A DNA stretch of 64,000 bases from positions 1,798,001 to 1,862,000 of the forward strand of contig NZ_CP054492.1 in NCBI RefSeq assembly GCF_015265455.1, read 5' to 3'. Under the pieces are notes generated by a model, which worked only from the letters and a program-made list of their open reading frames with translations, had not been told where the DNA came from and made no database searches. This document shows positions 34,751 through 52,153 of this stretch, one piece after another. Position numbers and translations under genes: made by a program. This DNA comes from Candidatus Sulfurimonas baltica (GTDB lineage Bacteria > Campylobacterota > Campylobacteria > Campylobacterales > Sulfurimonadaceae). Position 1 is the stretch's first letter. Each line of letters starts with the position of its first letter.

Positions 34751-34774
34751 TGTTTCCTCTTTTATTTATTTTTT

Positions 34775-36667: not shown

Positions 36668-37596
36668 GCATATCCCCTTTTGTTTCTTATAAATATATAT
36701 AGCATTAAAGATATTAGTGAGATAAACAGCGGAAACATAAAATAGTAGTTTATATATGTAAAACTCTCGCTCTTAATCTCTGATTTTTCAAGCTCATCAA
36801 TCTTTTTATATACAGCTTTCAGCTCTGCGGCACTTGAAGCTCCAAATGCAACTCCACTAGTCTCCTTGGCAATTTTTAGTAAAACGTGTTGATTATACTC
36901 GTTAGAGTTGCCTATTCCTATTGGGTAAACTTTTACTCCCTCTTTTTTTGCCATCTCTATAGCAATATCCAGAGGAATTTTATCTATCTCTGGCGTACTG
37001 TACCCATCGGTAAGTAAAATTGCCACCTTGCTTTTAGACTTACTCATCTTTAAAAGGTTTACACCTTGAGCCAAAGAGGTATTTAGCGCTGTATATTTTC
37101 CTGCCATCCCTATGTAGAGTTGAGAGACTATTTTATTTAAAATGTTTTCATCATAAGTTAGCGGAGAAGCAATAAAAGAGTATGCTCCAAAAACTACAAG
37201 ACCGATATTGTCGCTTTTTCTCTGATTTATAAAGTCACTAACTATCTCTTTTACGGCATCAAATCTTGTAAGCATAGGGTTGTTTGTGTCAAACCCTCTG
37301 GCTTGCATTGATTGGGAAGCATCTAAAATCAGAGCTATCTCATACCCCTCTTTTGGCTCAAGTTCATAAGGCTCATCTTTCACAGGAGACATAAGAGCTA
37401 TAATCATCATCGTGATTCCAAGCCATTTAAGAAATAAAAGAGGTTTTGAAGCCGAAACGGAGTTCTTTAAAAAACTCCCTGTATGAGGAAAATATATAGA
37501 TGGTATCTTCATCTTACACACTCTGGCACAAACCATAAAAACCAAGAGTATTAAAATCAGATATGGGAACTCAAAATAAAGTCCGTCAAACATCAA
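36664..37596 (-). CDS. batA: BatA-like VWA membrane protein, first Bat cluster
   Basis: 310-aa protein with N-terminal membrane segments (about 10-25, 55-72), a VWA domain holding MIDAS DASQSM and the TDG loop (LLTDGYSTPE), and a C-terminal membrane segment near 285-305. It overlaps batB by 4 bases and the DUF4381-like gene by 11, indicating tight co-translation. VWA pairs such as BatA and BatB are thought to interact with MoxR-family ATPases. Confidence 0.88.
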   Translation of the reverse strand: MMFDGLYFEFPYLILILLVFMVCARVCKMKIPSIYFPHTGSFLKNSVSASKPLLFLKWLGITMMIIALMSPVKDEPYELEPKEGYEIALILDASQSMQARGFDTNNPMLTRFDAVKEIVSDFINQRKSDNIGLVVFGAYSFIASPLTYDENILNKIVSQLYIGMAGKYTALNTSLAQGVNLLKMSKSKSKVAILLTDGYSTPEIDKIPLDIAIEMAKKEGVKVYPIGIGNSNEYNQHVLLKIAKETSGVAFGASSAAELKAVYKKIDELEKSEIKSESFTYINYYFMFPLFISLISLMLYIFIRNKRGYA

Positions 37597-37999
37597 TCAT
37601 GCCCTTATATAGCTCTATATAACCTAGTGTTTCACTATCAAACTTATCAACATGTTTTTTGTATTTATAAACTTCAAGTCTGTTGGTTATATTTGTATAC
37701 ATCTCCTGATGCCTTGGACTGTCATCTTTAAATGTCAGACCATAACTTGTAATGGCATATGCGCTATGTTTTGTATCACTTAAATCAAGTTCATGCAGAA
37801 GTCTGTAGTGCTCTTTTTTGATATTAAAAGCATTTCTTTTTTTATACCACATGTATAAAAGATATAACCCTAAAAACAAAACAATAAGCACAACAGAACT
37901 TACACCTAAAAGATAGTATAAAGAGTACTCAGTCACATCAACTATGGTCTTAATATCGTGTAGGGGAATGTCATAACTTTGAGCTTGTTGTGCTTTCAT
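37586..37999 (-). CDS. Small membrane protein of the Bat cluster, DUF4381-like
   Basis: 137-aa protein with one membrane segment (VSSVVLIVLFLGLYLLYMWY, about 34-53) and a basic, helical cytoplasmic part. Size, topology and place between the DUF58 and batA genes match the DUF4381 proteins of MoxR operons. It begins one base before the DUF58 stop and overlaps batA by 11 bases. No catalytic motif is visible. Confidence 0.65.
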   Translation of the reverse strand: MKAQQAQSYDIPLHDIKTIVDVTEYSLYYLLGVSSVVLIVLFLGLYLLYMWYKKRNAFNIKKEHYRLLHELDLSDTKHSAYAITSYGLTFKDDSPRHQEMYTNITNRLEVYKYKKHVDKFDSETLGYIELYKGMIDV

Positions 38000-38851
38000 T
38001 TATCTACCCTCAAACAATCTGCGAAGTTCTACACCTGCAAGAGAGTCAGTATATATTTTACAAAATCTAATTTGATCTTTTCTAAGAGAGTCATAAAGTA
38101 TGTGGTCGTGTGCCTGAACTTTTTTACTGTAAGCTTTTACACTTGAAGAGTTAAAGTCCCCCTCTAAAACAGCTCCGCTCTCAGGGTCAACCAAAGAGGC
38201 GAAACCCATAGCCGGAGGATTCTCTTCTAGTCTATCTCTAACAATTATGGAGAGCACTTCATGTTTTCTAGCCAGAAGTCTAAAATCTGGAATCTCAAAA
38301 TAGTCACCGATAACCAAAATTACAGATTTTCTTTTTAGTCTCTTAAACAAAGTGTCTGCAATAACTTTAAAATCTACTTTTTTGTTTATTGCATCAAAAC
38401 TTAAGATATCTTCTACGCTTTTTTGAATCTGGTGGAGTTTTTTGCTTGGTTTTGAGCTAGAGATCATCTCGTCGGTAAAAATATATGAACTAAGCAAATC
38501 TCCATTTTTTAGAGTTGAGTAGCTAAGCAGTGCAGCTACTTCAGCAATAGACTCTTGTTTAAACTTTTTTGAGCCAAAATGTACACTTCCGTTTAAAACA
38601 GAGACTATAACAACATTTAGCTCTCTCTCTTCACGAAATATTTTAATAAAAGGCTTCTGAAGTTTTGCTGTAATATTCCAGTCGATATGGCGGATATCAT
38701 CCCCTGGCATATACTCACGAAGCTCTATAAAGTCATACCCCTCGCCTTGAAAAATCGACGGGTTGTTACCGACCATTTCACTAAAGACTTGACGCTTTGC
38801 TCGAACTAATATTTTTTGCACGGATAAACCGTATTGAGATAGCTTGCTCAT
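38000..38851 (-). CDS. DUF58 domain protein of the MoxR-Bat cluster
   Basis: 283-aa soluble protein with the DUF58 signature GDDIRHIDWNITAKLQKPFIK near residue 50, and a degenerate VWA-like fold after it. DUF58 proteins are nearly always encoded after a MoxR ATPase and are presumed to work with it. It lies 7 bases after moxR and directly abuts the next gene. Confidence 0.9.
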   Translation of the reverse strand: MSKLSQYGLSVQKILVRAKRQVFSEMVGNNPSIFQGEGYDFIELREYMPGDDIRHIDWNITAKLQKPFIKIFREERELNVVIVSVLNGSVHFGSKKFKQESIAEVAALLSYSTLKNGDLLSSYIFTDEMISSSKPSKKLHQIQKSVEDILSFDAINKKVDFKVIADTLFKRLKRKSVILVIGDYFEIPDFRLLARKHEVLSIIVRDRLEENPPAMGFASLVDPESGAVLEGDFNSSSVKAYSKKVQAHDHILYDSLRKDQIRFCKIYTDSLAGVELRRLFEGR

Positions 38852-38858
38852 TTACGAC

Positions 38859-39806
38859 CTACGGAATTGCTACAGTCTCTAAAACTTTTTGAATAATTTC
38901 ATCTGTTGTAACACCCTCAGCCTCTGCTTCATAAGTTAAAACTATACGATGTCTCATAAGCTCTTTTGCGATATATGCCACATCAACAGGAGTAACAAAA
39001 TCTTTTCCGCGCATAAACGCCATAGCTTTTACAGCCTTAAACATATCTATACTTACACGAGGTGAAGCACCAAACTGGATATAATCTTTTATATCATCAA
39101 GACCATAAAGTGTAGGATTTCTGGTTGCATTAACAAGTTCTATCATGTACTCTTCAACTTCTTCATCTACATGTACATTTTTTATGGCCTGTTTTATCTC
39201 TTGCAAGTCATCATTTGTAACTACTGCTTTTATAGATTCAAAGTTTCCGCTTGAGATTCGTCTTGCTATCTCCAGTTCCTCTTTTTTTGTATTATAGTCA
39301 ACTATCAGTTTTAGCATAAATCTGTCTAGTTGAGCTTCTGGAAGCTGGTAAACACCCTCTTGCTCAACCGGATTTTGAGTAGCCATAACAAAAAATGGAG
39401 GCTCTATTTTAAAAGTCGTATCACCTAGCGTAACCTGTTTCTCTTGCATAACCTCAAGAAGAGCAGATTGTACTTTCGCAGGAGCACGGTTAATCTCATC
39501 TGCTAATAGCAGGTTTGTAAAAATAGGACCTTTTTTGATTTTAAAACTGTTATTTTGCGGGTCATAAATCTCTGCACCAAGTATATCTGATGGGAGTAAG
39601 TCCGGAGTAAATTGGGCACGTTTAAAGTTAAGACCTAAACTTTGTGCCAATGCATTTACGGTTGTAGTCTTTGCAAGTCCAGGGACACCCTCGATAAGGA
39701 TATGTCCATCACAAAGAAGTGCTATAAGAAGAGAATCTATCATCTTCTCTTGTCCTACAACTACTTTAGAAACTTCTTTTTTTATTAACTCAATCTTAGA
39801 AATCAT
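38859..39806 (-). CDS. moxR: MoxR-family AAA+ ATPase
   Basis: 315-aa AAA+ ATPase. Walker A is GVPGLAKTTTV near residue 40, Walker B LLLADEINRAPAKVQ near 98, sensor 1 ATQNPVEQEGVYQLPEAQLDRF near 142, and sensor 2 GASPR near 248. MoxR proteins act as chaperone-like ATPases with VWA partners, here BatA and BatB. It starts the six-gene Bat cluster; a 77-base gap separates it from the lipoprotein gene upstream. Confidence 0.95.
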   Translation of the reverse strand: MISKIELIKKEVSKVVVGQEKMIDSLLIALLCDGHILIEGVPGLAKTTTVNALAQSLGLNFKRAQFTPDLLPSDILGAEIYDPQNNSFKIKKGPIFTNLLLADEINRAPAKVQSALLEVMQEKQVTLGDTTFKIEPPFFVMATQNPVEQEGVYQLPEAQLDRFMLKLIVDYNTKKEELEIARRISSGNFESIKAVVTNDDLQEIKQAIKNVHVDEEVEEYMIELVNATRNPTLYGLDDIKDYIQFGASPRVSIDMFKAVKAMAFMRGKDFVTPVDVAYIAKELMRHRIVLTYEAEAEGVTTDEIIQKVLETVAIP

Positions 39807-39883
39807 AAGTATTAGACCTTGTGTTAAAGTTAGGGAAGTATAACGAATTGGGAGTAAATGGATGGTAATATTAAACTGCTTTT

Positions 39884-40894
39884 TTAATTGACTCCAAGAA
39901 TCTTTAAAACATCTCTTTTTTGTATCTCTTGTTTGAAATTTTCAACAGAATCAGACATAGCAATATCATCACTTTGTGGCGAGTAGCCAACAACATTTAT
40001 TTGCTCACTGTGTATAATATTTTTTTTCTCATCTTTAACCTCGATCAGCACGGAACTCTTGGCGATATAAACTCCATGAGAGAAAGCTTTGTCTAGTTTA
40101 TGTGAGAGCGATATGTTAATATTGTTTTTATCATTTTGGCTGTTTGGTTTTATAGCTATTTTAGTCTCACTTAAAGCTGTTTTCACTGCATTTGCAAATG
40201 CTCTTGATTCTTTAGAGCTAGAAAAAGAGATACTCATGTTTTTAAGTAACAAATCAAAATCATTATTAAGAATCTGCATTGTTTTTAAGTAAGGTGCATC
40301 ATCAAAGTCTTTATCTAATGAGTCAAGAACCAAAAGTGTTGAGAGTGTTTGTGAGAGTGTTTGCTGCGACTCTTTGTAAAAAGAATATCGGCTTAGTATA
40401 TTCATATCACTGATATATTTTTGCTTATCTTCAATCTTTTTATATATTTGATTTAAAGTTTTTAACAAACTTTCTGTCAATATTTTTTTATCTGAACTCA
40501 CAAGAGTTACAAAGTGCTTATAGTTTTGTTTATGAACCTCAACAACCTCATAATTGCTAATTCTTATTTTACTTACTTCACTTCTGATATCAGAACTGCT
40601 AGTTTGTGTGAAATACTCCCTATACCCTTTTTGAGTGTTTGTTGCAGAGTTATACTGAGACGATATGGTAATTCCAAGCTTTGAAACAAGGTTGTCCAGT
40701 GCACTTTTAATTGCTTCTTCTCTATTTATTCCATCTCCAACACCATAAATAAAGACTCCGTTGTTCACTGGTGGAGTTATATACCACAAAGGGAGTTGTT
40801 TTTCTACATGTAGAGCCTGAGATGGTTTGCCCACGCTGCATCCGCCAAATGAAAGAGCCAACAGTGCGAGTAAAATGTTTACTGATATTCTCAT
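39884..40894 (-). CDS. LPP20-family lipoprotein A
   Basis: 336-aa predicted outer-membrane lipoprotein, lipobox LSFGGC near residue 19. The N-terminal mature part shows the LPP20 pattern: PLWYITPP, GVGDGINREEAIKSALDNLVSKLG. A helical middle region and a C-terminal beta domain follow. It starts inside the stop of the CsgG-like gene (ATGA) and is the last gene of the lipoprotein island before the first Bat cluster. Related proteins at 46666-47541 and 62076-62636 share the LPP20 pattern. Confidence 0.78.
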   Translation of the reverse strand: MRISVNILLALLALSFGGCSVGKPSQALHVEKQLPLWYITPPVNNGVFIYGVGDGINREEAIKSALDNLVSKLGITISSQYNSATNTQKGYREYFTQTSSSDIRSEVSKIRISNYEVVEVHKQNYKHFVTLVSSDKKILTESLLKTLNQIYKKIEDKQKYISDMNILSRYSFYKESQQTLSQTLSTLLVLDSLDKDFDDAPYLKTMQILNNDFDLLLKNMSISFSSSKESRAFANAVKTALSETKIAIKPNSQNDKNNINISLSHKLDKAFSHGVYIAKSSVLIEVKDEKKNIIHSEQINVVGYSPQSDDIAMSDSVENFKQEIQKRDVLKILGVN

Positions 40895-41889
40895 TGTTGC
40901 ATCTGTTCTTGAGCATGTCTATGCGACGATATTGAGCTGTTTATACGTAAAATTGCCAAATCAACGGCTTCTACAGGTTTTACAGTTAAAGAATCAGCAA
41001 GTTCAAAAAGTTGTCTTGCACTTGTGAGGTCACCTTGAACCTCTTTGACTATTGCCAGATTGTATGCTGCTACATAACTTTTATCAGAAGTTGATTCAAG
41101 GAGTTTGCTTAAAAGCTCTTCTGCTCTGTCGTAGCGTTTATGCTGTATATATTCAAGTGCATGCTCAAGTTCATCTTCTTGTTTATCTGAATACTCTATG
41201 TCAGGTTCATCAAGAAGTAAAACTCTGTATGTGGCATAATATGGAACAAGCTTTTGAACGAAACTTCTGCTTACCTCATCAGCCAACATATTCAAACCAT
41301 AAGCTTTTGAGGGGAGATCATCTGTGTCATCTGAACAATGTTTCCATGCTCCATTTTTGCTTAGAGTCTCTGCATAGATAATATCCCCTTTTTGTATATC
41401 AACAATTTTTATTTGAGCAACTATAGCCATATCACGTCTTATGCAGCGAACACTATATTTGTAAGTCTCTTTGCACTTCTCATCTGAACATTTGGTTCTT
41501 TTTTCATAAAAAGATTTGTCACTCATCGATGCTGCCGAGATATCACCGCTGATAAGCGCTTGAGCACCGAGCAATCTGCCCATTTTTACAGAGCTTGACT
41601 CATCAAAAAGACCTGAATTTTGAAGACGTTGCTCCTCTATCACTTTATTTATATCGCTGCGGCTGATTGTTGTAAAATAGTTCTTTTCGTCAACCTTCTT
41701 ACCCGCCAACTCAACCTCAATCTTATTAGATAGTCCCACTGTATCATGTGAAAAAGTGCTAACCGCAACCTTTTTAGTACTTGCCATACGGTCAACTTCC
41801 GCTGGCTGTATTGCGTAAACTGTCGCCTTTTGGGCACACCCGCTTATTAGCAGTGCTGCCGTTGCAATCGCCAGTATGTAATATTTCAT
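40891..41889 (-). CDS. CsgG-like lipoprotein with C-terminal TPR region
   Basis: 332-aa predicted lipoprotein, lipobox LLISGC. Residues 30-215 resemble the CsgG fold: KKVAVSTF, DINKVIEEQRLQNSGLFDE, LLGAQALISGDI. A helical TPR-like tail (about 235-320: ALEYIQHKRYDRAEELLSKL, AAYNLAIVKEVQGDLTSARQ) follows. CsgG itself is the curli export pore, but no curli genes are here, and the membrane-spanning beta segments are not evident, so a structural or regulatory role is as likely. It overlaps the LPP20 gene by 4 bases. Confidence 0.78.
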   Translation of the reverse strand: MKYYILAIATAALLISGCAQKATVYAIQPAEVDRMASTKKVAVSTFSHDTVGLSNKIEVELAGKKVDEKNYFTTISRSDINKVIEEQRLQNSGLFDESSSVKMGRLLGAQALISGDISAASMSDKSFYEKRTKCSDEKCKETYKYSVRCIRRDMAIVAQIKIVDIQKGDIIYAETLSKNGAWKHCSDDTDDLPSKAYGLNMLADEVSRSFVQKLVPYYATYRVLLLDEPDIEYSDKQEDELEHALEYIQHKRYDRAEELLSKLLESTSDKSYVAAYNLAIVKEVQGDLTSARQLFELADSLTVKPVEAVDLAILRINSSISSHRHAQEQMQQ

Positions 41890-41917
41890 ATTTTTTTTAC
41901 CAGATTCATAAAAGTTT

Positions 41918-42535
41918 TTACCACGCTACAGATTTATTACTGCCGCGTTTTCCTATAATACGCTCATCTTCCCAAAAAGCCAAGCCTGTCTTGATATCTG
42001 TCAAAGACATTTGAAAATAGTACTCAACACGCTGGGTAGATTTATCTACACTAATATTACGCTGAAGAATTTTTCCAGAGAGACTCAAATCAGGTGCTAT
42101 CATAGACCCTTTTCCTGCAACAGTTTTTTGATTAAACTCATCATCTCCTCTAAGCTCTTTTCTCGTTTTCATAGCCATCGTATCTTCAGCACCGTTTGCC
42201 CCTACAGCAGTTGTCACAACAACTTTACCGCTGCGCAAAAGACCTACACGTATTTTCTTAACAAGCTGATCTGTGTCAATATGCTGCATCGTATCATTGA
42301 TAATTCTAGAGACCACAAGAACATAACGCTCGCCATTTGGTTTATTTACAGCTCCTGAAGCTAGAAGTGACTCTATCATGTCTTGAGCCGCGCCTTGAAA
42401 ATCACGGTAATCAAGACCCATCACAGCATCGCCTTTGTCGTTGTTTATATCAATATTTGTGGTTTTTGTTGCACATCCACTAAATAAAAGTCCAACTGCA
42501 CCTAAAATTATTGTCCATCGTATTGTTTGTCGCAT
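41918..42535 (-). CDS. lpoB: LpoB-like penicillin-binding-protein activator lipoprotein
   Basis: 205-aa lipoprotein, lipobox LLFSGC. The pattern DYRDFQGAAQDMIESLLASG, RYVLVVSRIINDTMQHIDTDQL and IAPDLSLSGKI is that of LpoB, which activates PBP1B from the outer membrane in E. coli. The neighbouring ycfL gene supports this, since ycfL-lpoB are adjacent in E. coli too. AAGGAG precedes the ATG at 42535. It overlaps ycfL by 28 bases. Confidence 0.85.
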   Translation of the reverse strand: MRQTIRWTIILGAVGLLFSGCATKTTNIDINNDKGDAVMGLDYRDFQGAAQDMIESLLASGAVNKPNGERYVLVVSRIINDTMQHIDTDQLVKKIRVGLLRSGKVVVTTAVGANGAEDTMAMKTRKELRGDDEFNQKTVAGKGSMIAPDLSLSGKILQRNISVDKSTQRVEYYFQMSLTDIKTGLAFWEDERIIGKRGSNKSVAW

Positions 42536-42915
42536 GTTATCTCCTTGTCTTGTTTTATATATAAGCGAAACGTTGTCGCTTTTGTATTTGGTGATGTTGC
42601 ATTAATGTAAAAAGGCTGGTTTGCATATGCCGGAGCTTTTTTCCAGCCTGAGAGAATACTCTCTATTTTAAAACCCTCTTTATCAAGCCAAACTACACGG
42701 TACTCAAGAGCCTGATAGTTGTTGGAACTATTTTCACCGATAACCTGAGCCTGCATAAAACCATCAGGTTTTTTTCTCCCTTTTATATCTGTGATGACAA
42801 TACCTCCACTGCCACACCCATCTACAACTTTTACTATTGCACCGGCAGGTTCCGGCGATTTACTACAGCCAAAAAAAGCAACCAATGCTAAAACAATTAA
42901 TATATGAGACCTCAT
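42508..42915 (-). CDS. ycfL: YcfL-like (DUF1425) lipoprotein
   Basis: 135-aa lipoprotein, lipobox LVAFFGC. The mature part has the DUF1425 pattern: FMQAQVIGENSSNNYQALEY, RVVWLDKEGFKIESILSGWK, and FYINATSPNTKATTFRLYI. Start ATG at 42915 has AAGGAG at good spacing; a GTG two codons upstream lies inside that ribosome site. YcfL has no settled function; its repeated pairing with LpoB points to cell-wall synthesis control. Confidence 0.8.
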   Translation of the reverse strand: MRSHILIVLALVAFFGCSKSPEPAGAIVKVVDGCGSGGIVITDIKGRKKPDGFMQAQVIGENSSNNYQALEYRVVWLDKEGFKIESILSGWKKAPAYANQPFYINATSPNTKATTFRLYIKQDKEITCDKQYDGQ

Positions 42916-42963
42916 CAACACTCCTTATTGCTCTTTATATTCTAACATAAACAATCTTTGGCA

Positions 42964-45174
42964 TCAACTTACATTATTGTTCTTGTTTACAGGTAGGGTA
43001 ATAATAAAGATTGCTCCTTTATCATGATTATTCTCTGTTGAATTATAAACTACTATTGTTCCATTCATATGGTCAGTAATGATTTGGTGACTCATATTCA
43101 GCCCAAGACCTGTCCCTTTAGATTTATGTTTAGTCGTAAAATAGGGTTCATATATTTTATCGATAATATCAAGCGGTATCCCATCTCCATTATCTTCTAT
43201 TGCAATAATTATTTCGTCATTAATTTTTTTGATTTTTATCTCTATATGTCCAACTTTTTCTTTATCACTGTTTTGGCACTGTAAAATAGCATCTTTTGAA
43301 TTGTTTACTATGTTTATAATAACTTGCTTGAACTCATTCGCATAACCATACAGAATCAACTCCTCATCGGAGGAATCATCTATAATGCTAAGTGTTATCG
43401 AATGGCTGTTTAATTGAGGGGTTATTAAATTATAAACATCCTGTATGCTTTGTTTAACACAAAAGTTTTCTTTTAATTTATTTGGATTGTAATAACTTCT
43501 GAAATCATCAATAGTTTTTGTCATATACTCAAGCTGACCTGCTATTGCCTCTGACATCGGTTTATAATCTTCATAACTCACGCTTCCGTTTAGCTCTAAC
43601 ATAAATTCCACTTTCATATTCATAACGCTTATTATATTTAGAGGCTGTCTCCACTGATGAGCTATATTACCTATCATCTCTCCCATTGAGGCCATTTTAG
43701 CCTGTTGAAACAGTTGTTTCTCTTTGTCTTTAACACTATTATTTAACTCTACTTCATTTGTTATATCGATCAACTGGATTATGTCTGTAGTCTCATTTTG
43801 ATAGATAACTTCTCTCGCTTTAACGGCAAAGTGATACTCTTTGCCATCTTTTATTATCATGGCTTTGTGTACTTTATCTTTGTTTTTTATATAGTCTGTC
43901 CAGTAGACTCCATTTATATACTTACTCTGAATATAGTTTTTATCATCGTGCACTTCAAACAAATCGCAAACACACTCATATTGATTTAAAAATTCTTCCA
44001 AGTCTTTATATTGATTAAAAAACATTAAAAACTTTAAATTGACCTCTATAATATTTTTATTTCTATAGAGTATAATTATTGAGGGCAAAAAATTAATAAT
44101 TGATTTTGTCTCCTTTTGTGCAATCTTTATATTAATATTTGATTTTAAAATTCTATAAAGAAAATAAAATAACACCATTAAGGCGATAGCGATTATTGCA
44201 TTAATATGTTTATAGTCGCTGATAATATTCTTTAGCTCATCATTCATTGCATATGAAACAAAATATGCAACAACACTTTTATTGTCAGTGTGCCTAACAG
44301 GTATAAAAGTAACCACCTGCACGGAATCGTCAAACTCATGACACAAAGCAAAAGACTTTTCATGTTTAAAGTTTTTTTCTATATCTTTTTTCATGTATTT
44401 ATCTATGATTGCTTTTTCTTTTTTTCTTGCCTCCTCTATATCAAGTTTTGAGGTGACCGTGTATAAATAGTCTTCATGCTCAAGACTTTGGAGATATTTG
44501 TTGAAAATCTCCGGTTTCCACAGGTTTGTATCAAAAAGTTTTTTATTTACAATAAAGTGCGTATGTGTTTTATGATTCTCTTCAATAGACTTTTGCAATG
44601 CTCCTGAGGAAAATGAGATTTCAACAGCCCCCAAGTAGATGTTTTTGCTTGAAAAAACAGGATAAACAAATCTGTAGGCATGTATAGTTCTCCCTCCCTC
44701 AAACCCCTCTATAAACTCTTTGTGCTTATTAACATAATCAAAACTGTATCTAATACCTTTCAAATCATCCCCGAATTTTTCGTGCTTGTGCGTCCTTAAA
44801 AAATTCTGACTGTTTGGAAAGACAAATTGAAATTGCAAAACACCCAATTTTACCAACTTTGCATAATCCCCTTTTGTCAAATCATAGAGTTTTTCTCTCA
44901 AAACACCTCTTCTGATATCGTCTGCATTTAGCGCCTCTTCCAAAATATTTAAAATATCGGGCTCTTGAACTATTAAATCAAATGTATGTTGTGCTATTTT
45001 TTTATACAATCTTAAATTTGTATCATAATTCATCTGGTTGGCTGAAATAGTTTGGCGCAAGTGTTCTTTAACTCTTTGTTTTTTGTCGTTCGTGAGGACA
45101 AAGAACACAATAAAAAATGAAACAAGAAAAGCTAAAACAAGTAAAAATTGGTACTTAAATGTATTTGTTGACAT
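42964..45174 (-). CDS. Cache-domain sensor histidine kinase in the lipoprotein island
   Basis: 736-aa kinase. One membrane segment (about 8-27), a periplasmic double-Cache type domain (NSQNFLRTHKHEKFGDDLKG is typical of dCACHE_3), a second segment near 335-350, a PAS-like domain, then the kinase core: H-box MASMGEMIGNIAHQWRQPLN, N-box INIVNNSKDAIL, G1 AIEDNGDGIP and G2 STGLGLNMS-like SKGTGLGLNMSHQI. No response regulator is adjacent. About 40 bases separate it from ycfL, and 50 from the gene upstream, so it may be co-transcribed with the lipoproteins. Confidence 0.9.
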   Translation of the reverse strand: MSTNTFKYQFLLVLAFLVSFFIVFFVLTNDKKQRVKEHLRQTISANQMNYDTNLRLYKKIAQHTFDLIVQEPDILNILEEALNADDIRRGVLREKLYDLTKGDYAKLVKLGVLQFQFVFPNSQNFLRTHKHEKFGDDLKGIRYSFDYVNKHKEFIEGFEGGRTIHAYRFVYPVFSSKNIYLGAVEISFSSGALQKSIEENHKTHTHFIVNKKLFDTNLWKPEIFNKYLQSLEHEDYLYTVTSKLDIEEARKKEKAIIDKYMKKDIEKNFKHEKSFALCHEFDDSVQVVTFIPVRHTDNKSVVAYFVSYAMNDELKNIISDYKHINAIIAIALMVLFYFLYRILKSNINIKIAQKETKSIINFLPSIIILYRNKNIIEVNLKFLMFFNQYKDLEEFLNQYECVCDLFEVHDDKNYIQSKYINGVYWTDYIKNKDKVHKAMIIKDGKEYHFAVKAREVIYQNETTDIIQLIDITNEVELNNSVKDKEKQLFQQAKMASMGEMIGNIAHQWRQPLNIISVMNMKVEFMLELNGSVSYEDYKPMSEAIAGQLEYMTKTIDDFRSYYNPNKLKENFCVKQSIQDVYNLITPQLNSHSITLSIIDDSSDEELILYGYANEFKQVIINIVNNSKDAILQCQNSDKEKVGHIEIKIKKINDEIIIAIEDNGDGIPLDIIDKIYEPYFTTKHKSKGTGLGLNMSHQIITDHMNGTIVVYNSTENNHDKGAIFIITLPVNKNNNVS

Positions 45175-45225
45175 GAGAATCTTTGTGTATAAAATTAGTT
45201 ATTAACAAAATGCAGTTTATCGCCT

Positions 45226-46641
45226 TTAATAAAAGCTGATAACACTAATGCCTGGTGTTGAAATTACTGCTGGAATTTTAACATAAATCATAGAATGTTT
45301 GGCATTGATATCAATCTTTACATCCAAATTTTTAACTCCGGCTTTAAGAAGCAGTTTTCCGTCAGATGGCATTTTTACCCTTGCAATTTGAAAATTTTTT
45401 GGCAAAGAGTTCCAAACTCTAGTGTCGGCATGAGTAGTTAAAGACTGAAAAATGCCGGTTGCGAGACCAAGAACAGCTCCCCCTTTCTCGTTTGCCCTAT
45501 ACTGCGCATAAGTTTTTAATATTGCCGAGAAAACTGCCCGGGTCAAAATATCGTTATACGAATAGTTAAACTCTGTTAACACTACTCTGTCCATGTCGGC
45601 GACTAATGATGTATCTTCTAGTTTTTCCCCATGAGAAAAAACGGTTATGTTTGATGTTGCCTGCTCTCTTGTATTCATTTTTGGCAGGGCTATCCCTGCA
45701 TATACTAATTTAGGAGTGAAAAGAAACATTGGTATATTTACTCTATACTCAGACTTGATAGCTCCTAAACCGTTCTCGTATATCACCCATACATACTTTT
45801 CACTAATGGGCTTGCCCGAGAGTGCATCTTCTACCATCTCAAAATCAGCTTTTACTGTTTTATTTTTGGGCACCATCCCATGAACCTCTTTTAAAAGTGA
45901 TGATGATTTTGAGTAGTCACCCTCTATTGCAAAAAACAGACCTGCCAAATAGGTTGTAAAGGGATTCACAAAATCAGGATAGGCCTGAAACTGCTCCAAA
46001 GATGAGTAGTTTCTTTGCGCTATGTTTTTAATTGTTGCATTGGAGAGTGTTTTATCAAACCCGGCACTTCTTTTCTCTCTCCTTTTTTCTGCTATTGCAT
46101 CTTTTTGCTTGCCTATCAACTCTGCATATGTCTCTTTTGCACGTCTTTGACGGTCAATAGCGCGGTTTAGTTCGACTCTAGCCTCTGCGTATTTTCCTAG
46201 TGCCATATAATCGAGAGACTTGTATGTGTTTACCATTATCGCTTCACTTATAGTTGCATGATAATCTATCGCCGCATCATTAAGCATCAGCTGTGACATG
46301 TAGTCTGCCACACTCCCCCCTATTGTCTCCTCATGGTGAAATTTGATAATATTTTCTGATTCATCAAGCATCTTAATGCTGTTAATATAATCTTTTGCAT
46401 AAAAATATGAGTTTCCTGCTTTTAGAATTGAGAGTAAATTTGCCTCATCTAATGAAGCTCTCTTATCTTTGCTCTCATATGCCAGAGTTGCCGCTTCTGC
46501 GTAATGACCCGCAATATACATTTTATCCTGCTGTGAGGAGTTACTTAAATCAACACCTATGGAGTTTGCAAGATTAGATACACATCCAGAGAACAATAGA
46601 GGCAAGAGAGTAACAAAAAGTAAATGTTTTAATAGTTTCAT
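45226..46641 (-). CDS. COG3014-like lipoprotein with TPR-like helices
   Basis: 471-aa lipoprotein, lipobox LLFSGC. Residues 30-290 are helical and TPR-like (MYIAGHYAEAATLAYESKDK, YMALGKYAEARVELNRAIDR, YLAGLFFAIEGDYSKSSSLL). The C-terminal part (from about 285: KYVWVIYENGLGAIKSEYRV) is a beta domain. This layout is that of COG3014 proteins. Such genes often sit with LPP20 and LpoB-like genes, as here. Function unknown. Confidence 0.75.
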   Translation of the reverse strand: MKLLKHLLFVTLLPLLFSGCVSNLANSIGVDLSNSSQQDKMYIAGHYAEAATLAYESKDKRASLDEANLLSILKAGNSYFYAKDYINSIKMLDESENIIKFHHEETIGGSVADYMSQLMLNDAAIDYHATISEAIMVNTYKSLDYMALGKYAEARVELNRAIDRQRRAKETYAELIGKQKDAIAEKRREKRSAGFDKTLSNATIKNIAQRNYSSLEQFQAYPDFVNPFTTYLAGLFFAIEGDYSKSSSLLKEVHGMVPKNKTVKADFEMVEDALSGKPISEKYVWVIYENGLGAIKSEYRVNIPMFLFTPKLVYAGIALPKMNTREQATSNITVFSHGEKLEDTSLVADMDRVVLTEFNYSYNDILTRAVFSAILKTYAQYRANEKGGAVLGLATGIFQSLTTHADTRVWNSLPKNFQIARVKMPSDGKLLLKAGVKNLDVKIDINAKHSMIYVKIPAVISTPGISVISFY

Positions 46642-46665
46642 TTATATACTTTGTATTTTATTTTT

Positions 46666-47541
46666 TTAATTATTAACAATCCAAACATACAGCTCACAAC
46701 TCTGCGGATCAAGCCATATATCTTTTACAGTCGTTGGTTGGGATCTATTTGCACTTCTTACAATTGACGATGTTTCAAAGATTTCTCCTGATGTATCATT
46801 ATGTAAGATTTCCAATGCTTCATGTTCTGATGCAATTTGTGTTTTTTTTCGCTTTGAAAGAGCTGATTTCGCCAAGATTGTAGCAACTTTTTTTTGCTCT
46901 TCATAACTTTTCAAACTCTCTTTTTCTGCGATACCGACACTTCCCTGATAAGTATTTTGATTTGGTCTAAAAAACCATACAGGTTTGTTTTGGTACAAGT
47001 CGGCTTTAGTATCAATTGTTTTTAATATATTCTGAGGATAACATCTGCTTTGCATAAGTTCATCTTTGTCAAACGCTCTCGTATTTAGTTTTGGCAGAGT
47101 CTGCATAGTTTTTGCGTACTCGCTCTTTATGCCTAAAAGATTGTTTAGCCTTGGTTTTGAAAGTTCCACTAGAACATATAGTTTTCTGTTCTCATCAAAG
47201 TATGCATCGACCTGATAACTCTCATTTAAAAAAATTTCCGATAAAGCTGTAATCTTATTATGGTTTTTATTTAAGATTTTATCTTCATTGATTTTTTCAC
47301 TACTGTTGTATACTGAGGTAATGTATGATTTTAAACTATGCGCCAAATCACTTTTTGCCTTATTAACAGCTGCAAGACGTTGAGTATATACACCCTGAAA
47401 ATTAACTTCACTCGAGCCCACTCCTCGTAAAGCGTCAGGAGAATCAACCCATTTTGGAAGTTGTTCACTAGGCTTTACTTGAACTGCCGGAGCACACCCT
47501 GCAAAAAAATAGATTAAAATTAATAAAAAAACTTTGTACAT
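46666..47541 (-). CDS. LPP20-like lipoprotein B
   Basis: 291-aa lipoprotein, lipobox YFFAGC near residue 15. The mature start reads LPKWVDSPDALRGVGSSEVN, then a helical A-A-V-N-K-A-K-S-D-L-A-H-S-L-K-S-Y stretch, the same order as LPP20-type domains. It is 24 bases upstream of the COG3014-like gene and 24 bases downstream of the next. A second copy of the family in one island suggests duplication or a hetero-oligomer. Confidence 0.7.
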   Translation of the reverse strand: MYKVFLLILIYFFAGCAPAVQVKPSEQLPKWVDSPDALRGVGSSEVNFQGVYTQRLAAVNKAKSDLAHSLKSYITSVYNSSEKINEDKILNKNHNKITALSEIFLNESYQVDAYFDENRKLYVLVELSKPRLNNLLGIKSEYAKTMQTLPKLNTRAFDKDELMQSRCYPQNILKTIDTKADLYQNKPVWFFRPNQNTYQGSVGIAEKESLKSYEEQKKVATILAKSALSKRKKTQIASEHEALEILHNDTSGEIFETSSIVRSANRSQPTTVKDIWLDPQSCELYVWIVNN

Positions 47542-47565
47542 GTAACTCCCAAATTGTTAAAAAGA

Positions 47566-48588
47566 CTATTGTTCTCTATATAGAGTCCCTCTGGCTACCT
47601 CTTTATTCTCTTCATTATATTGCATCAAGAGAAGTTGTGTATTATTTAATTTCTTTAAATCTATAAAATGTTTATCTACACATTTATCTTCACCATAAGT
47701 AAGAATCTCTTTAAACTTAACTATATTTGCAGTTTTGCTTTGTATAATAAGTTCTCCTCCGCAATTTAATGAGTTGTAGTCAATTGTCCCGACACCGCTT
47801 TGTGTTATCTCTATCATAACATCTCCGCTTCCGCCGTTTGAACGCATAATAAAGCCACTCCAAACCCCATAAAAACCACGTTTTACTTTTTGTATACGCT
47901 CTTGGGAACTATATAAAATATTTTTACTGTTTTCTACTGTCTCTTCGTTGCTCTTGCTTAAATCAGCATTTCTTAAAAATGCCGGAATATACTCTACTGC
48001 TCCAGACATAGTATAGGTTGCAGACTCCTCATCATAACTGGCTTTTGTAATCTCAACCGATAGGACAAGCTTACGTGCCTCATCTGCAGAAGTATTTCTA
48101 GCAGAAGGTTTTTTTGATGATATTGCCTCAACAATAAATGCACCCTCTGCTGCCCCTTTTAGGTCTCTTTGCGCAATATCGGCATTGGTGTATGTAAAAT
48201 CATCCAACCTTATAAACTGCGGAGTCATATCTTGAATCTCCTCATCTGTTGCATATGCCTCTATAGTTACCTGCAAGTCACCGAAATTTTCACCGTTTTG
48301 AAACTTTGGCTCACCTTTTATGTGAACTACTCCTCCAGATTTTTCACGAACAACATCATCAAGGATTTTTCCGTTAACCATCACTGTCTCGGAGAGTAAA
48401 AATTCCCCGAAAATTTCCTTTGCGGCTGAGAGTTTTGCTTTTTGTACAGCTATCTCTTTAAGCTCAGAGAGTGTTTTATTCGGATATAGCATCTGGTTTA
48501 CAGTTATTGTTTTTATAACCGTTTTATCTGCAAAAGATTGTGTCAGTAGCAGAGTAATAATAATTAAAAATATTTTCATTTTTTTCAC
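47566..48588 (-). CDS. Periplasmic protein of the lipoprotein island, unknown family
   Basis: 340-aa protein with a cleavable signal peptide (about 1-20, ending QSFA) and no lipobox. The N-terminal part has a pattern like LPP20/DUF4384 proteins: LYPNKTLSELKEIAVQKAKL followed by AAKEIFGEFLLSETVMVNGK. The C-terminal 110 residues (from GFYGVWSGFIMRSNGGSGDV) look like a small beta-barrel domain. I do not recognise the family. It is the first gene of the island, 43 bases downstream of the second batD gene. Confidence 0.65.
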   Translation of the reverse strand: MKKMKIFLIIITLLLTQSFADKTVIKTITVNQMLYPNKTLSELKEIAVQKAKLSAAKEIFGEFLLSETVMVNGKILDDVVREKSGGVVHIKGEPKFQNGENFGDLQVTIEAYATDEEIQDMTPQFIRLDDFTYTNADIAQRDLKGAAEGAFIVEAISSKKPSARNTSADEARKLVLSVEITKASYDEESATYTMSGAVEYIPAFLRNADLSKSNEETVENSKNILYSSQERIQKVKRGFYGVWSGFIMRSNGGSGDVMIEITQSGVGTIDYNSLNCGGELIIQSKTANIVKFKEILTYGEDKCVDKHFIDLKKLNNTQLLLMQYNEENKEVARGTLYREQ

Positions 48589-48630
48589 TTTATTAAGATT
48601 TAAATCATTTTAGTTCAATTGCATTTAATA

Positions 48631-49734
48631 CTATATTAAACCAATTTCTTTTTTGATTTTGTTTATGTTTGTAGCCTTTTTAGTCTCTATTTCCAATATC
48701 AGTTTTTCATACTTTTTTCTATCTTTTAAAGCCAAAATAACCGAAAGCTCCCCCAGAGAATCTGTATTTTTTACTTTCTCTTTAAAAGCTTCATCCTCAA
48801 GGAGCTGTTTTTTTGGCTTTTTCAACTTGATTTTTGAAATTAAAAATCCTAAAACAAAGGCGAAAAAATAGTAAAAATACTCATAATTTATTTTAAAATC
48901 TTCATCAGCCTTGTCTAAAAGTTCCTCTGCCTTAAAACCTTTTTCAACCTCAACTTTAACGGCGTTTACAACCAAAGCATCCTCTTTTTTTAGCTTCAAA
49001 TTAACATATTTTATATTTAACTTAGGAATTATAAACTCTTCACTCCCCACAAACGCAAATTTTTGACTCAAAATTCCGCTGTAACCATCTTTTGTAAGTT
49101 GAATGTCTTTTATAACTTTACCGGCAAATACTTTTACATTATCTATTTTGAACTCAAGGGGCTTAATCTCATCCAAATTCCCCTCACCCTTGATTATTAT
49201 CTCCATATGGTAAGGCTCATAAGCTTTTACATGTGGGGTATCTTTTTTAACTTCAAGTACAAGGTTTCCAACTAGAGCTATATCTGTTTTTACTACCTCT
49301 ACATGTAAGTTTTTTTGTTTTATTTTTGTTTTTGTATACTCTTCATAAGAAGCATTATCACGGCCCAAAACAGTATTTTTGATAGAGTCTTTATTTGTTT
49401 TTTTCATAACCGTATCAAAGGCAAAGTCAACATCAATAGATTTTTTTATAAATGCAACAAACTCATAGCTATTTACTTTTTTATTATTTATTAGTCTTTC
49501 ACTCTTAGTTAAAAGTTTTATAGTGTAGTTTTCATAATCCCCATCAGGATTAAACTCAATACTATAAAGTTCAGCATCATCGCTGAATCTACATATATAA
49601 CTAAGATGTATTGCTTCATTTACATAGGCTTTATTTTTACTTGCTGTCGCACTCCACTCATAAGTTGAAGCGAATATCTCTACATGTAGAAATATTAACA
49701 GTATTAAAAGAACCTTACCATGGCTGTTTTTCAT
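48631..49734 (-). CDS. BatD-like protein, second Bat cluster
   Basis: 367-aa exported protein: signal peptide, Ig-like beta domains including the BatD pattern NKAYVNEAIHLSYICRFS and HMEIIIKGEGNLDEIKPLEF, one membrane segment near 285-300 and a Lys-rich tail. It is shorter than the first batD product by about 100 residues. It overlaps the second batB by 20 bases. Confidence 0.78.
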   Translation of the reverse strand: MKNSHGKVLLILLIFLHVEIFASTYEWSATASKNKAYVNEAIHLSYICRFSDDAELYSIEFNPDGDYENYTIKLLTKSERLINNKKVNSYEFVAFIKKSIDVDFAFDTVMKKTNKDSIKNTVLGRDNASYEEYTKTKIKQKNLHVEVVKTDIALVGNLVLEVKKDTPHVKAYEPYHMEIIIKGEGNLDEIKPLEFKIDNVKVFAGKVIKDIQLTKDGYSGILSQKFAFVGSEEFIIPKLNIKYVNLKLKKEDALVVNAVKVEVEKGFKAEELLDKADEDFKINYEYFYYFFAFVLGFLISKIKLKKPKKQLLEDEAFKEKVKNTDSLGELSVILALKDRKKYEKLILEIETKKATNINKIKKEIGLI

Positions 49735-51139
49735 CTATTACCTTTTTATTAATCAGCTCATACTGTTTTGAGCTTAGTTTTGCCTTGCCGCTGTTTAAGT
49801 CAAGCATACTTTGGGACTCACTCTTTTTGCCGCCATCATCTGCTCCGCTACTAGCTGCTGCACTTACTTTCATATTTGAACCACCGCCCTCTTTTTGTTC
49901 TTTTGAGCTCTTCTCTTTTTTTGCCAATGATGATTTTTTATCTGTTTTTTGCTGACCTGTATTCATCTCTACTTTTTCACCTACATCTTTTATATAAGCC
50001 AAGTTTTCGTCTGCCTCTTTAGTGTAAGTTAGAGTAAGAGACTTTAAGTAGGCTTCTCTTGCTTTTTCAAACTCTTGAAGTCTTATATATGCATTTCCCA
50101 TATTATAATAAACTATCGATTTAATCTCTACATGTGAGGATTTCACGCCTCTATAACCATCTAGTGCTTTTTCATAGTTTCCATTTTTGTAAAACTCATT
50201 TGCCTCACTGAAAAGCTTTGTGTATCTGTCTGCATGTAGATTAACTCCAACCAGAAGCAAAAAGCCCAAAACATACCGCTTAAGTGTTGTCACACTTACC
50301 AAAAATGTAAGAATTGCCAAAAATACAAAGTAGTAAAACAGTTCTAAATTTTGAACTATTGTTGTTTCACTCTCTTTGTCCTTCTCTTTTTGTGAACTAA
50401 TGGCCTCAAGGAGTTCGCTGAAATCTTTTGTATAAACTCCCCCGGTTGCATCTGATATCTCTTTAATTGCACTATTTTCTCTGCTTACTACAATATCTCC
50501 AAGTTCATCTTTTAAAAGCTCACCATTTTCAAGTCTTAAAGTTGCTCCTATTGCTGAGCCAAGCATAAAAATATTGACTCTCATTGAGTTCTCTTTTGCG
50601 TATATAGCTTCACTCTCATAACCAAACTCATCTGCACCATCTGTTAAAAGAACAACGCTCAGCATCTTAGAATTTGACATTTTTCTAGCTAACTTTAGAG
50701 CCGGCATAACGTTGCTCCCTTTAGTAATTATAAACTTTTCATCAAGTGAGTTAAATAGATGTAGCAAAAGCTCTTTATCTTGTGTTAGAGGGGACAATAC
50801 AATAGCATTTGTTGTAAAGCCCAAAACTCCAAAACGAGTTTTGTACTCTGACATAAGCAGCTCTTTTAAAACTTCTTTCGCTTTTGCAAGTCTTGAGGGT
50901 TCTATATCTTGTGCAAACATTGAAAAAGATAAATCGACTGCTACTACAACATCGCTAAGTGCCTGCTTTGACTTAATAGGCTCCTGCTCGATAACCGGAC
51001 GAGAAAGAGCTAAAACTATTAGAATAAAGGTTAAAATATATCCTATTGCTGTAATACTAAAGTTTCTGAAATCTTTTTTTATAAACAGAGGCAGAAGAAG
51101 CACTAAAAGCCAAAAATATTCAGGAGATAAAAAACTCAT
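49715..51139 (-). CDS. BatB-BatC-like VWA/TPR protein, second Bat cluster
   Basis: 474-aa protein with membrane segments near 8-22 and 30-48, a VWA domain with MIDAS DLSFSM and TDG loop, a third membrane segment near 270, then TPR units (ANEFYKNGNYEKALDGYRGV, YYNMGNAYIRLQEFEKAREA) and a charged but much shorter tail than the first copy. The ending ELINKKVIDEKQPW shares the terminal PW with the first BatB (EKPW), a hint of common descent. It overlaps the second batA by 4 bases. Confidence 0.85.
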   Translation of the reverse strand: MSFLSPEYFWLLVLLLPLFIKKDFRNFSITAIGYILTFILIVLALSRPVIEQEPIKSKQALSDVVVAVDLSFSMFAQDIEPSRLAKAKEVLKELLMSEYKTRFGVLGFTTNAIVLSPLTQDKELLLHLFNSLDEKFIITKGSNVMPALKLARKMSNSKMLSVVLLTDGADEFGYESEAIYAKENSMRVNIFMLGSAIGATLRLENGELLKDELGDIVVSRENSAIKEISDATGGVYTKDFSELLEAISSQKEKDKESETTIVQNLELFYYFVFLAILTFLVSVTTLKRYVLGFLLLVGVNLHADRYTKLFSEANEFYKNGNYEKALDGYRGVKSSHVEIKSIVYYNMGNAYIRLQEFEKAREAYLKSLTLTYTKEADENLAYIKDVGEKVEMNTGQQKTDKKSSLAKKEKSSKEQKEGGGSNMKVSAAASSGADDGGKKSESQSMLDLNSGKAKLSSKQYELINKKVIDEKQPW

Positions 51140-52059
51140 TTTTCAATCTCCCTAAATAGTAAAAATAGTAACAGAGGAAGAACTAAAAGTAAAACTATCC
51201 AATAGTAATAATCTTTTAAAATATACTCTCTGCTTTTAATTTTTGAAGATTCAAGCATGTCAATCTCTTCATAAACACTCTGTAACTCTTTTGCTGAGAC
51301 AGCAGTGTAAAATTTCCCTCCGCTCTCTTGTGCAATTTTTTCTAAAAGTTTCTCATCCGATTCGCCCTTTTTACCAAGACCAATTGTATAGATTTTAATA
51401 TTTTGCTCTTTTGCAAGCTTTAGAGCATCTTTTGGGGAAATTTTCCCGCTGTTATGCTCGCCGTCTGTTAAGAGGATTATCACCTTTGTCTTTGCCGAGG
51501 AGTGTTTAAATGCTCTCACACTCATAGCCACTGCTTCACCAATTGCAGTATTTTGCCCCGCCATCCCTTGAGAGAGATAACTCAACATATCACTTACAAT
51601 CTCTTTTTCATAGGTTATAGGAGAAGCTATAAAAGCAAAATCTCCATACAAGACTACGCCAACATTGTCGCTAACTCTTTTATGAATAAACTCTGTTGCT
51701 ATTATTTTTGTAATTTCAAACCTGCTTAATCTCTCGCCTTTGCCCAGTTCATTTTCAAAATCAAGTCCTGATGAGTTCATAGAACCACTTGCATCTATGC
51801 ACAAAACTATATCTTTTCCATGTCTGTTAAGCGGGTTGAATTTATCTATTACTATAGGAGAAGCCAGAGCGATACAAAGCAATATAAAAACAATTACCTT
51901 TAAAATCCACTCCAGCTTTAAAAAACTTTTTTTTGAAGACAAAAACTGCAGATGTACAAAAAATATTGGCTTCATATACTCTTTACATCTATATAGACAG
52001 TAAATGATTGGGAGTAACAATAATATCAGATATGCATGTTCAAAACTATAGTAATTCAT
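51136..52059 (-). CDS. BatA-like VWA protein, second Bat cluster
   Basis: 307-aa protein with N-terminal membrane segments, a VWA domain with MIDAS DASGSM and LLTDGEHNSG, and a C-terminal membrane segment. I start it at ATG 52059 (MNYYSFEHAYLILLLLP); a TTG six codons earlier is possible. It opens the second cluster, which lacks its own moxR, DUF58 and DUF4381 genes, so it would have to share the ATPase of the first cluster or work without one. Confidence 0.85.
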   Translation of the reverse strand: MNYYSFEHAYLILLLLPIIYCLYRCKEYMKPIFFVHLQFLSSKKSFLKLEWILKVIVFILLCIALASPIVIDKFNPLNRHGKDIVLCIDASGSMNSSGLDFENELGKGERLSRFEITKIIATEFIHKRVSDNVGVVLYGDFAFIASPITYEKEIVSDMLSYLSQGMAGQNTAIGEAVAMSVRAFKHSSAKTKVIILLTDGEHNSGKISPKDALKLAKEQNIKIYTIGLGKKGESDEKLLEKIAQESGGKFYTAVSAKELQSVYEEIDMLESSKIKSREYILKDYYYWIVLLLVLPLLLFLLFREIEK

Positions 52060-52153
52060 TGGCAATATTTTAGCCAAAATGTAACAATTTTCGGCAAAAC
52101 TGTGGCAATAGAGAACAAATTTTAAAATATGTGCAAATTCTGCCTTTTTTTTC

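Follow-up and report, generated by a model that had tools for sequence, protein, structure and literature searches.

A lipoprotein gene cassette in the Bat/MoxR locus of Candidatus Sulfurimonas baltica and its conserved COG3014-YcfL-LpoB core

Introduction

Do lipoprotein genes that lie packed together on a bacterial chromosome build one envelope structure, or can they belong to more than one system? A 64,000-nucleotide stretch of Candidatus Sulfurimonas baltica (contig NZ_CP054492.1, positions 1,798,001 to 1,862,000 of the forward strand; hereafter the window), from a host genome consisting of a single contig of 2.74 Mb, raises this question. An initial annotation singled out eight open reading frames at 39884-48588 on the minus strand, encoding six lipobox proteins, one secreted protein, and one kinase, and read them as a single envelope system that had no name. 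We confirmed the eight genes at this position. The cluster is real; however, its surroundings, a Bat/MoxR locus, had been overlooked. Published work is cited here by PMC identifier.

Results

A cassette inserted into a Bat/MoxR locus

The eight genes belong to an uninterrupted run of 17 minus-strand genes extending from 52077 to 33332, with intergenic gaps of at most 77 bases. Their order is BatA1, BatB1, BatD1, SecX, LPP20b, COG3014, kinase, YcfL, LpoB, CsgG-like, LPP20a, MoxR, DUF58, BatX, BatA2, BatB2, and BatD2, so the genes from SecX to LPP20a are flanked by BatA-BatB-BatD (52077-48631) and by MoxR-DUF58-BatX-BatA-BatB-BatD (39806-33332). SecX and BatX are our own labels. The name COG3014 is that of the initial annotation; the protein had only weak TPR matches, and no Pfam or NCBIfam model named it. 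The components of Bat/MoxR (aerotolerance) operons, namely, MoxR, DUF58, two VWA proteins (BatA and BatB), and BatD, were all present in the window, which differs from those operons in that one run holds two Bat sets, two further lipoproteins (CsgG-like and LPP20a), and a slot for exchangeable cassettes.

A strong BatD1 match (E < 1e-78) was found in 27 of 60 related genomes, and 12 of these 27, selected by hand and having no COG3014 in the stretch obtained, were compared with the window. Eight of the 12 loci showed the order BatA1-BatB1-BatD1-CsgG-LPP20a-MoxR-DUF58-BatX-BatA2-BatB2-BatD2; two of the eight (L120 and L123) carried one additional gene before CsgG, and L127 carried two, an LPP20 and a BatD-like gene. 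In L122 and L126, LPP20a was present and CsgG was not recognized, and in L117 and L121 neither was found. LPP20a was therefore present in 10 of the 12 cassette-free Bat loci, and both genes in 8 of them, indicating that the CsgG-like lipoprotein (40891-41889; C-terminal TPR; PF03783, 33 bits over positions 50-151 of 210, about half the domain) and LPP20a (39884-40894; PF02169, 25.3 bits, just below the cut-off of 25.9) belong to the Bat/MoxR locus. SecX-LPP20b-COG3014-YcfL-LpoB is an insertion between BatD1 and CsgG. The reading of all eight genes as one system was accordingly rejected, and the 17-gene run is very probably a composite of two envelope systems.

The slot between BatD1 and LPP20a/MoxR was occupied by other genes in several relatives. 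A TraT lipoprotein was encoded there in L120 (4562-5320; 281 bits) and L123 (5367-6149; 274 bits), a pair of lipobox proteins of unassigned family in L122 (10101-12483) and L126 (9911-12212), and a chemoreceptor with one further gene in L117.

The COG3014-YcfL-LpoB triplet across phyla

The core of the cassette comprises COG3014 (45226-46641), YcfL (42508-42921; PF07233, DUF1425, 65.1 bits), and LpoB (41918-42535; PF13036, 147.6 bits, and TIGR02722, 152.6 bits, both above cut-off). A COG3014 profile search of genome_contigs returned 204 relatives, 80 of which were kept, and the neighbors were scanned in 89 loci (these 80, the window, and eight further genome loci). YcfL and LpoB directly followed COG3014 in 62 of the 65 genome_contigs loci whose downstream sequence reached at least 1.5 kb. 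The 89 loci include two duplicate pairs (L014/L025 and L016/L071); the count of 62/65 is free of duplication, and a count of 68/74 includes it. Grouped by record title, the triplet was found in 19/19 Campylobacterota, 5/6 Gammaproteobacteria, 5/5 delta-type, 31/32 Planctomycetota, 1/1 unspecified Proteobacteria, 1/1 uncultured, and 0/1 Lentisphaeria loci. The triplet is thus a conserved unit across phyla, from Campylobacterota to Planctomycetota.

The sensor histidine kinase (42964-45174; HATPase_c, 76.5 bits; dCache_3, 23.4 bits, just below the cut-off of 25.7) lay between COG3014 and YcfL in 2 of the 89 loci, the window and L012, whose COG3014 proteins are 93% identical. Because both loci come from close relatives, the kinase is not a conserved sensor, and it was rejected as a conserved part of the module.

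Outside Bat loci, a CsgG-domain protein followed the triplet in 27 of 48 loci with 4.5 kb of room, and a DUF6844 protein was also present in 11 of the 48; the window has neither a DUF6844 protein nor a module-type CsgG-domain protein in that place. The DUF6844 protein profile matched the solved structure of FTT_1539c (4qvr, E 6.7e-61), and FTT_1539c adjoins, by locus tag, a gene listed as LpoB in a table of PMC8149597. No mention of COG3014 or DUF6844 was found in the open-licence papers searched. A plasmid search returned two COG3014 records only. The five-gene set on Azospirillum TSH100 plasmid p1 (L103:7983-12986) shares COG3014-like, YcfL, and LpoB genes in this order with the window, but it continues with DUF6844 and a 402-amino acid protein with a subthreshold LpoB match, both absent from the window; it lies near sugar and methyltransferase genes and the gene for a very long Ig-like protein.

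The accessory genes were more variable. SecX (47566-48588) and LPP20b (46666-47541; PF02169, 30.7 bits, above cut-off) were both missing from L026 despite the presence of the cassette. SecX homologues were detected on the opposite strand near COG3014-YcfL-LpoB in L028, L029, and L035, with no Bat genes within the available stretch, indicating that the association of SecX with the module is not confined to Bat loci. At L014:5803-7575, a module CsgG-domain protein contained a VWA-like insert (weak DUF2201 match); this locus also adjoins MoxR.

Co-inheritance in Campylobacterota

We examined 279 Campylobacterota genomes of at least 90% completeness and found matches to COG3014 in 141, LpoB in 180 (177 above cut-off), and YcfL in 55 (54 above cut-off). 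The LpoB matches fell into two groups, 139 with E ≤ 3.7e-26 and 41 with E ≥ 6.9e-11; the weak match in the window was the CsgG-like protein. COG3014 was present in all 139 genomes with strong LpoB (E < 1e-20), and the only two genomes with COG3014 and no strong LpoB had marginal matches (approximately 3e-4). The shared set also contained 54 of the 55 YcfL genomes. Co-occurrence over genomes, proposed in the initial annotation as a check on its envelope lipoprotein system, thus favors such a system: COG3014 and strong LpoB stood together in 139/279 genomes and strong LpoB was never alone, in agreement with the cross-phylum triplet.

Among the 40 top-scoring of the 141 COG3014 genomes, LpoB lay within 1.5 kb in 38, the exceptions being the window, with its kinase, and G053. 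Fourteen presumed Helicobacter genomes, selected as having both matches on contig C1 with the genes nonadjacent, retained both COG3014 and LpoB with best matches 95 kb to 1.5 Mb apart; these distances are linear and would be smaller on a circle, and some genomes carry a second COG3014 copy. Within the genus the module was patchy, as a single-protein search detected COG3014 in 9 of 60 relatives and in 7 of 37 members of the genus.

The LpoB label and the PBP1b partner

E. coli LpoB spans the cell wall by a 54-residue disordered stalk and reaches the UB2H domain of penicillin-binding protein (PBP) 1b (PMC9593243; PMC6220978), and Typas et al., using stringent cut-offs, described LpoB and UB2H as restricted to enterobacteria (PMC3060616). 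We compared the distance from the lipobox Cys to the globular-domain anchor in an alignment and obtained 21 residues for the window protein, 56 for E. coli, and 24 for the Azospirillum plasmid copy. The stalk was 20-25 residues long in 80 of 82 module LpoB proteins; the other two were dropped because their lipobox column had no Cys.

A UB2H search of the host genome, which encodes one class A PBP, gave no match, and the E. coli control was positive. UB2H matches (E < 0.001) were obtained in 98 of the 279 Campylobacterota genomes, two of them above the cut-off (exactly 27 bits) at positions 3-49 and 1-43 of 85. Because class A PBPs of this group are also approximately 660 residues long, matches were inspected individually and not judged by frame length. 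All nine inspected, including both above the cut-off, were rejected as UvrB (seven) or Mfd (two); the other matches were not inspected.

We then considered 45 module genomes, that is, 44 from the 80 genome_contigs loci, selected by hand for spread, and the host genome. The class A glycosyltransferase domain was detected in 15 of 45 (control: 10 of 14 named genomes). It was not found in the other 30, 29 Planctomycetota and one Lentisphaeria, which include a 6.2 Mb chromosome record (L095); the planctomycete L066 does have the domain. In contrast, the class B transpeptidase was present in 45/45, indicating that peptidoglycan is synthesized in these bacteria and that the known LpoB target is often absent. 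UB2H was matched in 10 of 45 genomes (8 above cut-off) and stood beside a glycosyltransferase domain in four (L037, L093, L094, and L100); the remaining matches fall in reading frames 683 to 1214 residues long, which were not inspected.

The initial annotation had read peptidoglycan control from LpoB and YcfL. The family assignment holds, but the missing UB2H partner, the short stalk, and the 30 of 45 genomes in which no class A PBP was found make the inference to peptidoglycan control weak, and LpoB here probably does not work like E. coli LpoB. LpoB-family proteins belong to a closely co-inherited module in bacteria where the UB2H dock was not found, often without a class A PBP. The E. coli arrangement (hinT-ycfL-lpoB-thiK-nagZ) shares both families with the window, with YcfL directly before LpoB; it differs in having no COG3014 among the annotated neighbors, a long Pro-rich stalk, and PBP1b as UB2H partner. 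Since ycfL precedes lpoB there with no COG3014 annotated nearby, the E. coli pair may, judging from gene order, be what is left of the module.

Presumed counterparts in Campylobacter, Helicobacter, and Francisella

The core of the module is known piecemeal from Campylobacter and Helicobacter. The Campylobacter jejuni and Helicobacter pylori proteins discussed here are presumed counterparts, matched by order, size, and TPR; homologues were found in Campylobacterota genomes. The C. jejuni cj0089-cj0090-cj0091 operon encodes three lipoproteins in the same order, with sizes of 453, 122, and 207 amino acids against 471, 137, and 205 in the window; Cj0089 is a TPR protein like COG3014, and Cj0091 is similar to HP1457 (PMC3100323). 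The same order of TPR lipoprotein, small lipoprotein, and LpoB homologue was found in the window, interrupted by the kinase. The C. jejuni operon has three genes only, whereas the window triplet lies inside Bat/MoxR with SecX, LPP20b, and the kinase insertion. In H. pylori, HP0018 is a Cj0089 homologue and HP1457 an LpoB homologue; hp0018 apparently stands alone there, and the two genes are adjacent in many enterohepatic Helicobacter (PMC11394524).

Several phenotypes have been reported for these proteins. Cj0091 was recovered in the outer-membrane fraction, and the cj0091 mutant adhered less and was defective in early chicken colonization (PMC3100323). Deletion of HP0018 produced vesicle chains and less helical cells, and coimmunoprecipitation suggested MltD and AmiA as partners (PMC11394524). 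In Francisella, an FTT_1538c homologue was among vesicle-enriched proteins (PMC6795709). The triplet was therefore less novel than the initial annotation supposed, since it matches cj0089-cj0090-cj0091 and, in part, HP0018/HP1457; its breadth, the composite nature of the locus, and the uncoupling of LpoB from PBP1b emerged from the present analysis. As far as the open-licence papers searched show, the spread of the module, its close co-inheritance, its presence without class A PBPs, and the Bat/MoxR slot have not been described before.

Discussion

The anatomy of the locus, its composite nature, the co-inheritance, the short stalk, and the failure to find a PBP1b partner were computed. From these and from published mutants we infer complex formation, protein location, and targets. 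The HP0018 vesicle and shape phenotype, the adherence and outer-membrane location of Cj0091, and the vesicle-associated FTT_1538c homologue are the reason for proposing a complex acting on the envelope. We propose that the first system, the cassette, would be an outer-membrane lipoprotein set with COG3014 (TPR and beta domain) as the hub, YcfL and the short-stalked LpoB domain as its partners, and SecX and LPP20b as accessories in Sulfurimonas. It would stay near the outer membrane and act there on the contact between outer membrane and peptidoglycan, probably holding or restraining peptidoglycan enzymes, and not extending across the wall to activate PBP1b; its loss would loosen the envelope, resulting in vesicles and altered shape. 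The second system is the Bat/MoxR locus, to which the CsgG-like and LPP20a lipoproteins belong. The composite anatomy taken jointly with an outer-membrane-side lipoprotein complex acting on the envelope seems to us about evenly balanced between right and wrong. The mechanism at the outer membrane-peptidoglycan contact, which is argued by analogy with the published mutants, is tentative and somewhat less probable than that.

A number of observations weigh against this proposal. YcfL was detected in only 55 of the 279 genomes and is therefore either dispensable or diverged, and the co-occurrence of COG3014 with LpoB is partly due to shared ancestry, the genomes being related; a Fisher test on these counts therefore treats them as more independent than they are. 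Among 10 distinct loci in which both the cassette and MoxR could be seen (window, L012, L013, L014, L015, L022, L023, L024, L026, and L030), CsgG was present in 5 and LPP20a in 6; the absence of CsgG from half of them could mean that one system substitutes for the other or that they interact. Cj0089 fractionated with the inner membrane and its mutant showed no adherence defect (PMC3100323), so that a tight single complex fits poorly, only the cj0091 mutant having lost adherence. The HP0018 coimmunoprecipitation was a single biological replicate, with AmiA also weak in one control, and the mutant phenotype came from one strain (PMC11394524). Many of the genomes in which no class A PBP was found are metagenome bins, which makes single absences unsafe, yet the pattern is consistent. 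Finally, the stalk-length argument rests on E. coli geometry, and a short-stalked LpoB may well contact other enzymes.

The lipoproteins may instead form a ring. In this explanation, which we consider unlikely, the CsgG-like and LPP20 proteins would assemble with the module proteins into a ring or secretion channel of the outer membrane, related to curli CsgG or to the rings of FlgO, FlgP, and FlgT. The CsgG and LPP20 domains themselves and the CsgG-domain protein that follows so many triplets outside Bat loci point in this direction, as do one family member with an FlgT_M match below cut-off (19.9 of 31.2 bits) and the resemblance of the C-terminal part of the CsgG-domain family to the LysM-domain protein 6ve2 (E 7.4e-9). 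We take 6ve2 to be TsaP; the chain named TsaP, 3jc8, scores only 0.03. In the window, however, the genes for the CsgG-like protein and LPP20a are part of the Bat/MoxR locus, the CsgG match spans half the domain, and the genes adjoining the run are neither curli nor flagellar, as the initial annotation had correctly stated. Membership in a curli or flagellar system was rejected by linkage, the immediate neighbors being Bat/MoxR genes; flagellar genes were not searched genome-wide. It is slightly less likely still that LpoB activates a PBP here just as it does in E. coli, assisted by COG3014 and YcfL, and that the set controls peptidoglycan synthesis. The above-cut-off LpoB models, the ycfL gene directly before lpoB in E. 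coli, the single class A PBP of the host, and the interpretation of HP1457 as a PBP1B-type regulator by the authors of the HP0018 study (PMC11394524), which also counts against our proposal, all favor it. However, the host genome gave no UB2H match, only four of the 45 module genomes have UB2H beside a glycosyltransferase domain, a class A PBP domain was not found in 30 of the 45, and the stalk of the window protein has 21 residues.

About equally doubtful, and perhaps a shade more so, is the view that the module serves adhesion at the cell surface or contact with particles, a role proposed for Cj0091: the cj0091 mutant phenotypes agree with it, but the surface exposure of Cj0091 was left unsettled in that study (PMC3100323). 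Moreover, the module occurs in Sulfurimonas and Planctomycetota records. These bacteria are not known to be host-bound, which we count against adhesion. The least probable reading, to which we give very little credence, is the trans-envelope structure sensed by the Cache-domain kinase that the initial annotation put forward. It has in its favor that the kinase gene sits between COG3014 and YcfL; against it, that place is kept only in the two closely related genomes described above, and no response regulator gene was found beside the kinase.

If the proposal of an outer-membrane lipoprotein complex is right, there is a common outer-membrane system, with phenotypes in vesiculation and shape, that can be put to the test, and annotations such as "penicillin-binding protein activator LpoB" outside enterobacteria, for example, that of the Azospirillum plasmid gene, would be misleading. 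The association with Bat/MoxR is also a starting point for finding the targets of Bat proteins. We put forward, as a bolder and improbable but not negligible joint claim, that the Sulfurimonas Bat/MoxR AAA+ system services exchangeable outer-membrane lipoprotein cassettes (the module, TraT, or the pair of unassigned family) in the fixed BatD1-LPP20a/MoxR slot and that E. coli LpoB branched off late from an ancient and widespread COG3014-YcfL-LpoB module working without class A PBPs. If so, the Bat proteins would gain a class of clients, outer-membrane lipoproteins.

Predicted proteins and further features of the locus

A lipobox with Cys was recognized in LPP20a, CsgG-like, LpoB, YcfL, COG3014, and LPP20b, with S, A, A, S, V, and A, respectively, at position +2; the same simple pattern did not find a lipobox in SecX, BatD1, or the kinase. 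The AlphaFold model of COG3014 (pLDDT 89.4, pTM 0.88; 72-sequence alignment A2, made from 76 listed proteins with 4 left out) consists of TPR-type helices at approximately 30-275, followed from residue 283 by a beta part that includes a long helix. In the fold search, only the TPR half was well matched, by generic TPR folds (Z ≤ 15.7); the beta part had no good match there, and this is not read as a new fold. A sequence search of the PDB with COG3014 gave one match at chance level. SecX, which matches no family, was modeled (pLDDT 71) with a C-terminal small beta barrel, for which Foldseek returned small designed beta barrels and a lipocalin-family protein; its N-terminal region is conserved. 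The predicted COG3014 and SecX structures do not reveal a function.

The LPP20b profile matched the solved LPP20 lipoprotein 5ok8 (E 1.3e-5). The window CsgG-like protein matched the CsgG-domain proteins of other module loci with a probability of 92.9 over 180 columns, as expected between CsgG-domain proteins. SecX did not match them by profile (hhalign probability 6.2). Alignments A5, A7, and A6 used 28/35, 9/11, and 3/4 proteins, respectively.

A promoter scan of the window gave 69 sites against a shuffle mean of 67.8, that is, no excess, and 14 terminator-like sites were counted against 9.6 in shuffles (sd 3.0); neither result was used.

The Bat genes, all on the minus strand, begin with BatA1 (51136-52077), a VWA protein (PF00092, 82.3 bits) whose BatA-type NF047508 match of 182.5 bits lies below the cut-off of 380. 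It is followed by the BatB1/BatC-like VWA-TPR protein (49715-51139; VWA_2, 55.8 bits, and TPR) and by BatD1 (48631-49734), a diverged protein with no Pfam match; the BatD1 search finds BatD2 of the same genome at 9.8e-11. Beyond the lipoprotein genes, MoxR (38859-39806; AAA_3, 215 bits) and DUF58 (38000-38851; PF01882, 144.6 bits) precede BatX (37586-37999), a small protein with no Pfam match that was recognized by position and kept in 12 of 12 Bat loci. The run ends with BatA2 (36664-37596; VWA, 72.1 bits), the BatB2/BatC-like VWA-TPR protein (34775-36667; VWA_2, 60 bits), and BatD2 (33332-34750; PF13584, 103.5 bits). BatA, BatB, and BatD are thus each present twice within 33332-52077, a doubling common to the compared relatives.

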